NCBI GenBank assembly: GCA_014654705.1
Contig: JACVZY010000045.1
Coordinates: 1-48,331, forward strand
Direction: 5' to 3'
Length of the DNA stretch: 48,331 bases
From: Ignavibacteria bacterium
Lineage (GTDB): Bacteria > Bacteroidota > Ignavibacteria > Kapaibacteriales > UBA4661
The stretch's first letter is position 1; each line of letters begins with the position of its first letter. The notes under the pieces are model-generated. The model worked only from the letters and a program-made list of their open reading frames with translations. It made no database searches and was not told the DNA's origin. Made by a program: the position numbers and the translations under genes. Below, one piece after another: positions 39,809 through 44,138 of the stretch.

Positions 39809-39839
39809 TTTGATACAGGATATATTTCTTGTACATTTG
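39809..39839 (+). promoter_or_regulatory. Promoter of ncRNA unit A
   Basis: Exact Bacteroidetes consensus: TTTG at 39809-39812, 19 bases, TACATTTG at 39832-39839. The same arrangement recurs at 40111-40141. Confidence 0.8.
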
Positions 39840-39843
39840 TGTA

Positions 39844-39918
39844 TAAGTCTGCTCTACATGAAGGTCGCCCATCGGCGTTGAAGCTAACTACTTCTTAGCG
39901 TAGTTGTGGGCTTTTTTT
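39844..39918 (+). ncRNA. Candidate small RNA, unit A
   Basis: A transcript starting about 39844 (TAAGTCTGC) would end at the T run 39912-39918 after a hairpin: outer GCCCAT/GTGGGC (39867-39872 with 39906-39911) and inner AACTAC/GTAGTT (39886-39891 with 39900-39905). The whole unit from the -33 box to about 39932 matches unit B. Conserved blocks are TTTGATACA, TAAGTCTGC, CATGAA, CTTCTTAG, GGGCTT and ATTTTGTGCCGTTA. The 45 bases between TGAA and GGGC are of equal length in both units but mostly different. The only open frame (MKVAHRR) is not shared with unit B, so coding is unlikely. I do not recognise a known RNA family. Confidence 0.6.
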
Positions 39919-40047
39919 ATTTTGTGCCGTTAGCCTGTTACAGCATTTAGGCAATACTTACATCATCGTCATTATCTTCGTTTAACACGTGTATCCCGTC
40001 AATACTGCATCGTCAACTTCGCGCTCAGTGCCAGAGACGAGTTCGAC

Positions 40048-40078
40048 CATTTTGCTAACGTCAGCAAAATGCTTTTTG
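40048..40078 (+). terminator. Hairpin between the two ncRNA units
   Basis: Perfect 9-bp stem CATTTTGCT/AGCAAAATG (40048-40056 with 40063-40071), 6-base loop, then CTTTTTG. It looks like a terminator, although no gene lies before it on the plus strand; it may end read-through from unit A or an unseen short transcript. Confidence 0.55.
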
Positions 40079-40110
40079 CATCGGTGTAAAGCGCATAATT
40101 AAGAGAGATA

Positions 40111-40141
40111 TTTGATACATGAACTATTTCACGTATATTTG
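40111..40141 (+). promoter_or_regulatory. Promoter of ncRNA unit B
   Basis: TTTG at 40111-40114, 19 bases, TATATTTG at 40134-40141; same boxes and same spacing as unit A. Confidence 0.8.
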
Positions 40142-40147
40142 CCGATG

Positions 40148-40227
40148 TAAGTCTGCGTTGCATGAATTCCGACTCCATGTCGTCGAAGGGTATCCTTCTT
40201 AGTGCATCGGCGGGCTTATTTTATTTT
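40148..40227 (+). ncRNA. Candidate small RNA, unit B
   Basis: Paralogue of unit A, about 303 bases downstream. Begins near TAAGTCTGC (40148). The interior contains a strong hairpin GAAGG/CCTTC with loop GTAT (40185-40189 with 40194-40198) and an outer CCGA/TCGG (40169-40172 with 40207-40210), then GGGCTTATTTTATTTT. Unit A has the counterpart GAAG...CTTC at the same place, so the hairpin is kept while its loop changed. A 39-codon frame starts at 40162 but has no equivalent in unit A. The 3' part is antisense to the last codons of the DUF3800 gene. Confidence 0.6.
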
Positions 40228-41019
40228 GTGCCGTTAATCTGTTTGTGCCTTTGTAATAATTTCGACTCCCCAAGTAATTAACCTTGTCGTACAAATCCAC
40301 GACAAGGGATATTTTCTCTCCTAAAAAATCGTAGTATCGCAATTCACCTCGCTCAAGAACTCGCTGCACCGCCCAACAGCAATAGTCAGATATATTCAAA
40401 AGTGGCTCAGTATAATGGTTCTGAACATTAAAACTACCTTTGTTTCAATCATTTTTTCGGGCTTTTTCAGTAAATGACGTTGAGTTGCCTTTTCTAAAGT
40501 GGTTTGGAAAGTTTTATGCTTCGTTGTGTTACTTCGTTCTGCTATATTCAAAATAAGTTCGCCACCCAATTGTAGCTTATTTTTGAGCAAATGTGAAAGC
40601 AAATCAGCATAAAACTCTGTGTCGCTGCCATTATGTTTATTGGCAAAAAGCGTATATATCTTGCGCCCAACAACTGCCTCAAAGCTAAAATCTAGTGTTT
40701 TGATAAACTTGAAAAATGTGCTCCGTACTTCCGGTACGTCATCCGTCGCATGAAAGAAAAAACCGCCACGTTGTTTTTTCTTTTGAATGCTTGGAATGCC
40801 GCTTAAATACTCATCTTGCTCAATCTCTTGCTGCAATGCCACGACCTTTTGACGAATAGGCTCAAGTGGCTTTTTGAATTTTACCATTCCTAGCATAAAA
40901 CAAAGCGAAACACCATTCTGTACGCCAATAATCGGCGTTTTACCCTTCCCGAAAAATGTCGTGTCTCCCGCTTCATCCCAAAAGCGGTGATAGGTCTCTA
41001 ATGCTAGTTTTGTACTCAT
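40199..41019 (-). pseudogene. DUF3800 gene broken by a one-base frameshift
   Basis: The first reading frame (41019 to 40396) begins MSTKLALETYHRFWDEAGDT, the Asp/Glu-containing start of DUF3800 proteins, and runs to a premature stop. From about 40437-40441 the -1 frame continues with family-like sequence to 40199: NVQNHYTEPLLNISDYCCWA, then VQRVLERGELRYYDFL, KISLVVDLYD and a terminal NKISPP. Adding one base in the short CC/TTT run at 40437-40441 restores a protein of about 273 residues. Everything on both sides looks intact, so this is a recent mutation or a sequencing error rather than old decay. DUF3800 has an RNase H-like fold and often lies in defence or mobile contexts; activity unproven. 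The start lies one base after the stop of the restriction-methylase gene. Confidence 0.8.
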
Positions 41020-41020
41020 A

Positions 41021-43828
41021 TCAATTTCCCTTTTTGCCCCGTTTCTTCCCGCCCGCTTTCGCTGCTGCCCGCTCCGCATCTGCCGTGAGCGGCGCTGTGT
41101 ACCGCTCATACAACTCGAATAAAAACGCTATCCGCTCCTCGTCCGTACCGAACGCCTTCTGGCGATAGCACTTCTCCACCGCTCTGTCCAAGTCCTGATG
41201 CGCCCTCACGAGCGCAGGCGGCATCGTGAGCGGGTCGTAGAGGTCGGCAAGCGAGGACTGAGGGAATGCCGAACGTGCGTCCAGCACCGCCTGTGCCGCC
41301 CGCTCTACGGCTTGCTTCTGGGCATCGGTTGGGCTTTCTGCCCACGGGAAATTGTTGTAAACAATCGTGTTGGAGTAACGAAAATCACTCTTCAAGCGCC
41401 CACACACGTACTTTACCCACGTCATATGCAGAAGCGACGAAAGTATGCCGAAGTGGTAGAGGGTGGCGTTGGGGACGATGAGCGCAAGATTACTGACGAT
41501 TGTCTCGGCATCCATGAAACCGATAGGAATATACATTCGTCGCTCCGATGATACCGACGGAACCAGCAAATACCGACGTTCCGGCTGCCGAATTTCATCA
41601 AACAGCGTTGCTATGGCTGCTTTTTTGCGCGTCGCTTCTTTGGTGCTTGCCAGCCGCATTGTGCGAACCTTTTCGACACGTTCCAGCACGTGCGGCATAG
41701 CACGAAGTTCTTGTGGTGAAGCGTCTTTCAGCCACAAGCACCAGCGCGTTGTGCCATTGATAAATTCATCTGAGCCAACAAAGGGGCGAATAAATTTCTC
41801 CGCATTCGGTTCTTGAGCGATAAATTCGTCGCGCTCTGCTTTTGCGGCAAAGAGTAAATTTCCGCCGTCGGTGGGCTGATTACCTTTACACATCTCCGGC
41901 ACATCGCAAAGCGGCGTAGAGCGGGCATGTACCAACGTATTTCCCGCAGGAATGAGATAGGGACTGATATTCGGAACTTCGGAAACGTGCGGTTCGCTTG
42001 TGGGCGTTTCGTATTCGTAGAGCAGGCGCGGAGCGGTTTCTAGGACTTCTTTTGCCGCAAAGCCAATTATCACACAATGCACAGCCGCTTTGCCCGGAGC
42101 CTCGTTTGTCCACTTGAACGTGCGGTGCGCGAAAGCAATAGCCATACCATGTTTGAAGAGTTCATTCCACAGTACGCCAACTTGTTCGCCTTGCGATATC
42201 GAGTTCGTCGAAACAAACGCAGCTTTAATGCGAGTTCCACCGATATATTCTGCGGCTTTTTTATGCCACGCTGTTACGAAATCAAGACTATTCGCCACTT
42301 TGTCATTACCAAAGACCGCACGAATATCAGCTTTTTGCTCAGAACTCTGCATTTGTGTTCCCACAAACGGCGGATTCCCAACAATATAGGAACACTCCGC
42401 AGGCGGCAGCACCTCACGCCAATCCGTGCGCAGCGCGTTCCCATGCAGGATGTGGGCAGATTCGGTGAGCGGCAGCCGTGTGAAATACGAGCCGAACTGC
42501 TGAGAGGCGTGGATGTTCATCTGGTGGTCAGCAAGCCACAGTGCGACTTCGGCGATACGCGCGGGAAATTCTTCCAGTTCAATACCGTAGAATTGCCCCA
42601 CGTTCACCCACGTCATCGCCGCAACGTCGGTGGCAAGCTGCCCCGTGCCCTTGAGCGTGTCCAGCGTCGTCAGCACGTCCAATTCGAGTTGGCGAAGTTC
42701 GCGGTAGGCTGTTACAAGGAAGTTTCCGCAACCGCAAGCGGGGTCGAACACGCGCACGGTTGCCAGACGGCGGTGGAATTCTTCCAATTTGGGGCGATTG
42801 CTTTTGGAGAGTTTCAAGGTTTCAAATTCCGCACGAAGGTCGTCCAGAAAAAGCGGTTTGAGTGCTTTCAGGATATTTTGCTCCGAGGTGTAATGCGCCC
42901 CCAAAGCACGGCGTTCTGCGGGATTCATAGCGGCTTGGAACATCGAGCCAAAAATTGCTGGCGAAATGCGGCTCCAATCCAGCGCACAGCATTCCAAGAG
43001 CGTTTCGCGCATGGTGCGGTCGAACTGCGCGATTTGAAGCGCGCCCGCGAATAAGCCGCCGTTCACGTAGGGCAGTGCTTGGAGCTGCTCGTCGAGTGTT
43101 TTCATGCGCTTTTCGGGCGCAGTATTCAGCACCTGAAAAATTTGGGAAAGGTGTATCCCCAAGTCGCTTCCATCCTCGTTTGTACGGGTTTCGATGAACT
43201 CCAAAAAGGCATTTTTCTCAAAAATCGCGGTGTCTTCGGCAAACATACAGAAGAGCAAGCGCACCAGCAGCATTTCGAGGTCGTGCCCCGCAAAGCCGCA
43301 ATCTCGGAGGCGGTCATGCAGTTTGCCCATGCGTGCGGCGGCTTCTATGTTCACGGGGTCTTCGGCGGAAAACGAGCGTTTTTCATAACCCGCCAGAAAG
43401 CCGAAATGGTGGATGTTTTGGGGGAACTCGGTAATAGAAAACTCGGTGAAGTGGTTTGGGTCGGCAGCATCCAAGTCGTAGAGCCGAAAGCGGGCAAAGT
43501 CAGACACGAGGACGTATTTGGGCAGTTGCGTGTCCTTCAGTCCCGGAAAATACTCCAGCGCTTGCGTGAAGGCGCGGTCAAGGTTTTTGCCCCGCGATTT
43601 GTGTTCCACCAGAATCACGCCCTTCCAAAGCAGGTCAATGAAGCCTTGCTTGCCGTCGTCTTTTTTGACAGGCTGCTCAAATGCCGCCACACGGCGGCGC
43701 GGCACACCAAACACATTGAAAAAAGCATCCCAGAAGGACTTTGCTTCTGCGTCTTCGCTTGATTCGTGCTGCCATTCACGCGAGAAGGCAAGCGAGCGGT
43801 CTTTGATTTCATTCCACGAAAGAGGCAT
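41021..43828 (-). CDS. MmeI-like fused restriction endonuclease/DNA methyltransferase (type IIG/IIL)
   Basis: 935 residues, close to MmeI (919). Single-chain enzyme: an N-terminal PD-(D/E)xK nuclease (IDLLWKGVILVEHKS, Asp65, Glu75, Lys77, with the same D-x9-E-x-K spacing as MmeI), then a helical linker. The N6-adenine methylase follows with motif I VFDPACGCGNFL (360-371) and motif IV VGNPPFVG (483-490); the lead-in ALGAHYTSEQNILKAL is typical. The remaining C-terminal part should hold the target-recognition domain, followed by a basic tail (KKRGKKGN). It would methylate one strand and cut at a distance from its site. The frame is open to 44038, but the 70 upstream residues are not family-like, so ATG 43828 is chosen. 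A DUF3800 gene follows in the same operon. Confidence 0.88.
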   Translation of the reverse strand: MPLSWNEIKDRSLAFSREWQHESSEDAEAKSFWDAFFNVFGVPRRRVAAFEQPVKKDDGKQGFIDLLWKGVILVEHKSRGKNLDRAFTQALEYFPGLKDTQLPKYVLVSDFARFRLYDLDAADPNHFTEFSITEFPQNIHHFGFLAGYEKRSFSAEDPVNIEAAARMGKLHDRLRDCGFAGHDLEMLLVRLLFCMFAEDTAIFEKNAFLEFIETRTNEDGSDLGIHLSQIFQVLNTAPEKRMKTLDEQLQALPYVNGGLFAGALQIAQFDRTMRETLLECCALDWSRISPAIFGSMFQAAMNPAERRALGAHYTSEQNILKALKPLFLDDLRAEFETLKLSKSNRPKLEEFHRRLATVRVFDPACGCGNFLVTAYRELRQLELDVLTTLDTLKGTGQLATDVAAMTWVNVGQFYGIELEEFPARIAEVALWLADHQMNIHASQQFGSYFTRLPLTESAHILHGNALRTDWREVLPPAECSYIVGNPPFVGTQMQSSEQKADIRAVFGNDKVANSLDFVTAWHKKAAEYIGGTRIKAAFVSTNSISQGEQVGVLWNELFKHGMAIAFAHRTFKWTNEAPGKAAVHCVIIGFAAKEVLETAPRLLYEYETPTSEPHVSEVPNISPYLIPAGNTLVHARSTPLCDVPEMCKGNQPTDGGNLLFAAKAERDEFIAQEPNAEKFIRPFVGSDEFINGTTRWCLWLKDASPQELRAMPHVLERVEKVRTMRLASTKEATRKKAAIATLFDEIRQPERRYLLVPSVSSERRMYIPIGFMDAETIVSNLALIVPNATLYHFGILSSLLHMTWVKYVCGRLKSDFRYSNTIVYNNFPWAESPTDAQKQAVERAAQAVLDARSAFPQSSLADLYDPLTMPPALVRAHQDLDRAVEKCYRQKAFGTDEERIAFLFELYERYTAPLTADAERAAAKAGGKKRGKKGN

Positions 43829-44138
43829 AGAATAGTGGGAGTAAAGCAAGTGAGACAAATAAGTGCGAGGCGCAATATACAACCAATACCGAAAACGCCC
43901 CAGCCTTGAAATTCTTTCCCTGCCCGCGTGTTTATACCTGTCAGTGTGTCCTGCCAAAATGTCTGTCTCCCTGCGCCCGTACCGACAGTTTGTCGTGTGG
44001 GCACTGATTTTCCTGCCAAAATGTCGTGAAAGCCGCATGAAATCTTGTCCAAAAACACTTTGGCACGCTTTTTCTTATTTCTCTTTGCGAAAACACAAAC
44101 CACGACTTCACACACATTCTCTCTAGGAGAAAACAATC
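43829..44138. promoter_or_regulatory. Divergent control region between the restriction enzyme and hsp20-1
   Basis: About 310 bases. It holds two identical 15-base direct repeats (TCCTGCCAAAATGTC at 43949-43963 and 44011-44025), each an imperfect dyad TGCCA-AAA-TGTC. Further on is TTGGCACG (44060-44067), which resembles a sigma-54 -24 element, but the -12 GC is missing. AGGAG at 44125-44129 is the ribosome-binding site for hsp20-1. Confidence 0.5.

Follow-up and report, generated by a model that had tools for sequence, protein, structure and literature searches.

The DNA analysed here (the window, 48,331 nucleotides) is one complete contig of a 5.7-Mb genome and carries two short RNA units on its plus strand, flanked on one side by a minus-strand gene of 936 amino acids, which by eye reads as a probable phosphoenolpyruvate carboxylase, and on the other by a minus-strand MmeI-like restriction enzyme (Table 1). 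An earlier note on this DNA had described a pair of small-RNA units, and direct reading of the promoter, core and T-rich tail of each confirmed this observation. Behind their promoters, both units continue with TAAGTCTGC, from 39844 in unit 1 and from 40148 in unit 2, a spacing of 304 bases, and both are followed downstream by the tail ATTTTGTGCCGTTA. A BLAST search of the own genome with unit 1 and its flanks (141 bases) returned only the query itself and unit 2 (73% identity, E 1.8e-11), and the exact core pattern was found in units 1 and 2 with no third occurrence in this genome. Units 1 and 2 are thus paralogous RNA genes of about 78 nt each, and their resemblance is not due to chance, because covariance models pick up relatives in other genomes. 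As had been remarked before, open frames are not common to both units when compared by eye, and a peptide-coding reading was dropped for this reason.

Table 1. Features of the window around the two RNA units.
Feature	Position	Strand	Evidence
Promoter of unit 1	39809-39839	+	TTTG 39809-39812, 19 bases, TACATTTG 39832-39839, read in the sequence
RNA unit 1, extra copy	39842-39919	+	P1-P4 fold, T-rich tail; R1 89.2 bits (in R1 training), R2 56.6 bits (outside R2 training)
Near-copy of the DUF3800 C-terminal end	39895-39939	-	Beside/inside unit 1; antisense NRLTAQNKKSPQLR; stop 39895-39897; contains shared tail 39919-39932
Promoter of unit 2	40111-40141	+	TTTG 40111-40114, 19 bases, TATATTTG 40134-40141, read in the sequence
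RNA unit 2, conserved place at DUF3800 3' end	40146-40223	+	R2 93.4 bits (R2 training sequence); family covariation
Stop codon, last frame of the DUF3800 reading	40199-40201	-	Within UUAG of unit 2; identical place in 47/80 relatives
DUF3800-family gene, frameshifted	40199-41019	-	tblastn: 40429-40992, and 40217-40408 in a different frame
MmeI-like restriction-methylation enzyme	41021-44038	-	Immediately upstream of the DUF3800 gene; five MmeI Pfam domains

A pattern derived from both units led to a third member (L010) in another family of the same order, and a covariance model (R1) was built on these three sequences. With R1, 6 of the 123 genomes searched within the order and 23 of the 395 within the phylum turned out to contain members, the own genome being counted in both, and most of the phylum-level members fall in one genus of Chlorobiaceae. 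The phylum count includes L174 and L175, which were later dropped since a further model, R2, misses them at E ≤ 1; both counts are lower bounds, because a limited number of candidates was scored per genome. The proposal of a small-RNA gene family with Bacteroidota promoters and more copies in relatives was thus borne out. DNA BLAST against 61 genomes, including the own, gave five short matches of 22-35 bases outside the own genome, two of which were read and all of which were taken as chance, while a plasmid DNA search gave no match. At the gathering threshold of Rfam 15, neither unit matched any family, the sole hit of the window being a tRNA elsewhere; at the same threshold, 13 DUF3800 loci gave only one hit, a tRNA, and 20 RNA-bearing loci gave none, and at E up to 10 three short stretches returned no DUF3800 family. 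A search with RF02969 in 247 genomes had no match and was uninformative, as 14 controls were equally silent. R2 also gave a weak match (22.6 bits) at L153:1284-1365 (+), where UGAA and the P3 motif are present and a diverged DUF3800 gene (1363-2217, -) lies in convergent orientation; judging from this match, the RNA family may extend further.

The RNA folds into a closing helix P1, a strongly covarying P2 and two hairpins, P3 and P4, with the invariant joiners GAA and UYAG (model columns 3-11/65-73, 13-17/58-62, 25-28/34-37, and 40-44/49-53 for P1 to P4, respectively). In alignment A8, which holds 36 sequences picked for equal length and leaves out Flavobacteria with a longer P4, both-side changes were found in 20 of 23 pairs compared to 13.2 in shuffles, and covariation was 0.560 compared to 0.210, a value reached by 0 of 500 shuffles; when the structure was slid, covariation dropped to 0.09-0.15. 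Paired cells amounted to 94.1% versus 76.4% in shuffles, a figure that is biased upward by the drawing of the structure from the first three members and its extension by eye on relatives. G-U cells outnumbered A-C cells (82 versus 16), an indication that the RNA strand is the folding one. Single-sequence folding gave z values of -2.6 and -2.7 for unit 2 and unconvincing ones of -0.6 and -0.9 for unit 1, and it was the comparison of sequences that settled the fold. The T-rich tail after P1 has a T fraction of at least 0.6 in 60 of the 80 protein-selected loci described below, and since P1 leads straight into this tail, it may double as the terminator stem.

These results modify the description given in the earlier note, in which fixed ends enclosed a variable interior. 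The span from TGAA to GGGC does measure 45 bases in both units, with an ungapped identity of 18/45, but the equal length is a coincidence and not a fixed property: helix lengths differ between the units (in the fold read by eye, 12 versus 13 nt for P3 and 15 versus 14 nt for P4, unit 1 being given first), and some relatives exceed both units in length, L134 for instance with 83 nt. Likewise, the GAAG/CTTC hairpin exists, but it is one of four helices. The interior had been taken as the target-facing part of a guide-type regulatory RNA, and the interiors of the two units do differ; however, the differences lie mostly in helices with compensatory changes. On average, unpaired positions are no less conserved than paired ones (in the 36 sequences, the top base has a mean frequency of 0.79 at the former and 0.75 at the latter), G19, A20, A21, U54, A56, and G57 are invariant in 36/36, and variable unpaired positions are either single bases or one three-base run (22-24). 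As no variable single-stranded run exceeds three positions, which is too short for a guide, and given the covariation and the conservation of unpaired bases, this reading was rejected and is now highly improbable.

The earlier interpretation also overlooked a probable partner of the units, the minus-strand DUF3800 gene, which lies mostly outside the stretch that it had considered. The lead came from L136, in which two RNAs are placed tail-to-tail with a protein resembling the window ORF 40396-41109 (-); this protein belongs to DUF3800 by Pfam (PF12686, 33 bits against a cut-off of 21), as does relative L178 (27.3 bits). In the window, the reading frame of the gene shifts somewhere between about 40409 and 40450, through either a lesion or an assembly error; the gene is intact in all eight relatives of alignment A6. 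Pfam gave no match on the interrupted window ORF; this ORF shares 51% identity with L158, and the relatives match PF12686 (Pfam) and DUF3800_VII (PADLOC). Among 55 relatives, 38 match PF12686 at E ≤ 0.001 and 17 miss it.

A search by protein only, based on alignment A6 and scanning for the conserved peptides HR[FY][LW]DEAG and D[TI]TF[YF]GKG, gave 96 relatives in 84,980 species genomes, the best 80 of which were retained. R1 detected the RNA beside all of them (80/80), on the opposite strand and at the 3' end of the gene, in convergent orientation, with the lowest score in L233 (24.1 bits, E 0.0099). Eight of the loci had already been reached via the RNA (L178, L179, L180, L181, L198, L212, L219, and L244) and 72 are independent. 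A conserved, covarying RNA structure is thus consistently found near DUF3800 genes, in Bacteroidota as well as in records labelled Verrucomicrobia, Spirochaetes, Chloroflexi, and others, many of which are metagenome bins. The RNA is present once in 77 of the 80 loci and twice in L188, L219, and L231; these second copies account for three of the four further R1 matches at E ≤ 1, and the fourth, L254:8014-8052 (E 0.58), was treated as a chance match. As to the second copies L188:4285-4363 and L231:6997-7073, one is near a PIN-domain ORF and one follows an ORF of 316 amino acids without a Pfam match. The protein search of viral contigs returned one locus, L258, which is uninformative, its gene being cut by the end of the stretch and no RNA being found there.

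The geometry of the pair is nearly fixed. Measured from the stop codon to the end of the RNA model, 47 of the 80 loci have a gap of -25 nt, 5 one of -19 and 13 one of -3, and the gap stays within 25 nt in 77 (in L219 it was counted from the farther of the two copies, 158). At a gap of -25, the stop codon is the complement of U-Y-A in UYAG; because UYAG is kept where the stop lies elsewhere (e.g., L178), it is best read as a feature of the RNA that is used by the gene. The close fit of the two ends, with the stop codon inside the RNA model in more than half of the loci, would suit cis regulation, in which the convergent, overlapping RNA controls the DUF3800 mRNA through antisense pairing or transcription collision. 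However, the overlap with the coding region is just about 25 nt, the remainder is a covarying fold on the RNA strand that would be superfluous for antisense pairing, and RNA copies also occur without a nearby DUF3800 gene, and we consider this mode of control unlikely.

The best explanation of the window is that unit 2 is the resident partner of its DUF3800 gene and unit 1 an extra copy. The tail ATTTTGTGCCGTTA is indeed shared by both units, as the earlier note had it, but it lies outside the RNA fold and is the reverse complement of codons near the DUF3800 end, which are present beside unit 2 and, as a near-copy, beside unit 1. Unit 1 is probably either the product of a duplication taking in the final codons of the gene or the remnant of a second gene copy, and either origin would explain why the tail is common to both units. 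At the second DUF3800 match of the own genome (G000:C3:97000-97602, L150), neither R1 nor R2 detected this RNA.

The promoter pattern of the window recurs in relatives. TAnnTTTG was found at -18 to -4 of the RNA in 35 of the 80 protein-selected loci and sigma-70-like pairs in 17, so that 48 loci have either pattern and 32 have neither; these counts compare with shuffle means of 1.5 (TAnnTTTG) and 2.3. The sigma-70-like promoters that were read include some from Spirochaetes, Leptospiraceae, Chloroflexi, and Hydrogenedentota, as the records are labelled (L194, L200, L228, L231, and L234). On the simplest reading, the RNA would be transcribed independently, from a promoter of the kind that its host uses, and transcription of the window units is suggested by their promoters and T tract. 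In loci selected by the RNA, the exact TAnnTTTG box occurs in 3 of the 12 that lack the gene, in 3 of the 8 whose gene is a fragment and in 3 of the 8 whose gene is intact, rates that neither separate these groups nor prove that the lone copies are expressed.

The structure of the DUF3800 protein was predicted with AlphaFold for relative L178, together with 54 relatives (pLDDT 92, pTM 0.90). Foldseek gave RNase HII and H3 as the best solved matches to this model, both weak (E 1.7e-3 and 1.9e-3), and no match at E 0.001 or below, while the first 23 rows of a structural aligner were RNase HII, H2, HIII or complexes containing them. The best of these, RNase HII 1eke, was aligned with Z 10.1 over 163 residues at 3.5 Å, and Argonaute came next (Z 6.9). 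D142 and D215 are invariant among the 55 sequences, and D19 and E20, which belong to the DEAG motif, are nearly so; RNase HII carries a DEAG motif as well. The L178 model therefore combines an RNase HII-like predicted fold with conserved acidic residues, but the identity to 1eke is only 12%, and the DUF3800 profile had no sequence match to solved structures at E up to 1. For other DUF3800 proteins, a passage of PMC10910872 also reports an AlphaFold-based RNase H fold. The partner of the RNA is thus a predicted RNase HII-fold nuclease, for which we infer a harmful activity; the likeness of fold by itself shows no activity.

PADLOC placed four relatives best in its model DUF3800_VII (E 7e-14 to 1e-17), and one of them also weakly matched RT-DUF3800_VII-A1, names that presumably refer to type VII retrons. 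The locus would then consist of a DUF3800 effector, a reverse transcriptase and an msr-msd RNA. In type VII retrons, the reverse transcriptase gene is beside or fused to DUF3800; however, a crude regular-expression screen of 153 of the 154 nearest neighbours gave 0 Y.DD and three F.DD forms, the MmeI-like neighbour in the window is not a reverse transcriptase, and the RNA has only about 78 nt. A literature search for retron and DUF3800 returned no retron paper. We consider a retron of this type very improbable here.

RNA and protein differ in how often each is found alone. The RNA-selected set comprises 29 loci, with the window entered once and without L174 and L175. DUF3800 was matched at full length in 8 of them, was broken or partial in 9 (the window, L137, L155, L160, L165, L167, L169, L176, and L177, some possibly cut by contig ends) and was absent within the fetched flanks in 12. 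The gene is therefore broken, partial or absent in 21 of 29 loci (20 of 29 without the window), whereas 0 of the 80 protein-selected loci lack the RNA. R2 scored 17 of the 20 RNA copies with a partial or absent gene at 70-90 bits (L135 and L137 are training sequences); the 12 lone RNAs scored 70-85 bits in nine cases and 36-54 in L134, L138, and L259. The 31 genomes to which 32 of the 80 protein loci led contain 36 RNA copies, so that at most a few are extra there. Some RNA copies without an intact DUF3800 gene are located near toxin-antitoxin-like genes (L154, L156, L164, L168, L170, L171, L173, and L177); Pfam identified PemK-like (L154), HTH (L156), nucleotidyltransferase (L170), and SocA_Panacea (L173 and L177) domains there, and in L164, L168, and L171 the assignment is by similar ORFs alone.

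The asymmetric loss matches what a toxin-antitoxin pair predicts, although it would likewise be compatible with a second role of the RNA. We propose, with a probability of roughly one in two, that the RNA is a dedicated partner that binds and restrains the convergent DUF3800 nuclease. In such a mechanism, a folded RNA of about 75-80 nt would be made from its own promoter and would bind the nuclease via the invariant junction and loop bases, keeping it off; the nuclease would be set free once the RNA or the restriction operon is lost. The direct support in this analysis is the pairing, the fold, the promoter boxes, the fixed convergent place and the loss pattern, and an antitoxin role is plausible because the RCd22/AbiF pair works by an RNA neutralising a neighbouring toxic protein.

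The main rival is that the RNA serves as a cofactor, i.e., a structural or activating part of a DUF3800 effector that is inactive without it. A required cofactor would equally yield the pairing in 80/80 loci, the invariant unpaired bases are typical of a protein-binding core, and DUF3800 proteins also occur with CRISPR effectors, according to passages of PMC10910872 and PMC12669027. On the other hand, a pure cofactor need not persist where the gene is partial or absent, as the RNA does in the 20 RNA-selected loci outside the window, and we regard this alternative as rather doubtful, if well worth weighing.

The adjoining restriction locus mentioned in the earlier note was identified by Pfam as the MmeI-like enzyme, and similar neighbours are frequent among relatives. 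Neighbour clusters (BLAST E 1e-5, anchored by Pfam-named members) showed a restriction-modification neighbour in at least 24 of the 80 protein-selected loci, or 25 with one unanchored cluster, a plain count and not a measured enrichment. Among the families listed for the nearest upstream proteins (75 scanned) were ResIII (8), N6_Mtase (4), EcoEI_R_C (4), Eco57I (4), Methylase_S (2), and Peptidase_M24 (4), and among those for the nearest downstream proteins (78) N6_Mtase (8), HsdM_N (7), Eco57I (6), ResIII (4), Type_ISP_C (4), and SusD (4); these Pfam and PADLOC tallies are minimal totals from the top 25 of 80-239 families. The top PADLOC rows for the neighbours were restriction-modification models. 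In four Dyadobacter loci, the nearest neighbours are not restriction genes and formed clusters of their own on both sides.

In L201 (3121-7195), the DUF3800-RNA module separates the two halves of a type ISP enzyme. In L255, a relative of this enzyme is unbroken and has 1072 amino acids, and the break in L201 corresponds to about residue 640 of that protein. Similar split arrangements, at lower identity, were found in L223:3130-7227 and L254:1775-5796. These arrangements, together with the tandem or extra RNA copies in the window, L136, L188, and L231, could point to a mobile or selfish cassette, in which DUF3800 and the RNA spread as one unit into operons of restriction systems, the main part of the RNA being to mark or assist this movement. 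However, L201 was unmatched in 72,556 plasmid records (E 1e-20) and 50,697 phage records (E 1e-10), and such a cassette seems very unlikely as the main role. Returning to the restrained nuclease, we infer that the DUF3800 pair guards or rides on the adjoining restriction-modification operons. More tentatively, and with rather less than even confidence, these loci may represent a class of RNA-restrained toxin modules, in which a convergent junction RNA, having the stop-codon region in common with the gene, would hold an RNase HII-fold nuclease. The module would act as a guard in or beside many types of restriction-modification operon, freed when the operon or the cell is attacked, and lone RNAs would be leftover or protective antitoxins.

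Other DUF3800 subfamilies seem to carry convergent RNAs of their own and of different kinds. In another subfamily, represented by L141, L142, and L143 from the genus of the window, a different convergent element ends near the gene stop; it consists of a GAATCC...GGATTC helix round a CAGCCAGACT/CGGAGTAG-like core, followed by a GGGAC/GTCCC hairpin and a T run, and had no Rfam match in these three loci. In a third subfamily (L148 and L149), a convergent similar stretch follows a TAAATTTG box; it is foldable and differs from the family described here.

Among known systems, the ToxIN pair is alike in that an RNA restrains a neighbouring endoribonuclease, as proposed here for DUF3800. As far as passages of the literature describe it, the ToxIN antitoxin consists of RNA repeats, whereas the present RNA is single and non-repeated, forms a multi-helix junction and is encoded on the other strand. 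ToxIN repeats precede the toxin gene and share its strand, an arrangement that was not seen in the 80 protein-selected loci, where one RNA (77/80) lies on the opposite strand at the 3' end. The AbiF/RCd22 pair (abiF, RF03085) resembles the present one in that a short structured RNA, equipped with a promoter and a terminator of its own, adjoins the gene of a toxic protein, and PMC12373285 states that RCd22 neutralises the AbiF toxin through binding. AbiF, however, belongs to the Abi_2 proteins and is structurally linked to Cas13, whereas the DUF3800 protein here has a predicted RNase HII fold, and the AbiF RNA contains two abiF motifs, lies upstream and is partly co-transcribed with the gene, whereas the RNA here is convergent at the 3' end.

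The closest known relatives in kind are RNA motifs linked to DUF3800, of which a 2017 survey reportedly found about eleven. The association of structured RNAs with DUF3800 is mentioned in a passage of PMC10910872, and the families DUF3800-I (RF02969) and DUF3800-IX (RF02968) are given in a passage of PMC11701678. The RNA described here is like DUF3800-I and -IX in being a structured RNA tied to DUF3800 genes, and is set apart from the Rfam motifs by Rfam scores; without a match in Rfam 15, it is a new family of a known sort, the DUF3800-associated RNAs. These have been known as motifs, for which the literature passages at hand give no tested function. In the present family, the fixed geometry, the 80/80 pairing, the predicted nuclease fold and the restriction-modification neighbours in at least 24 of 80 loci make the role of the RNA directly testable with two short genes.
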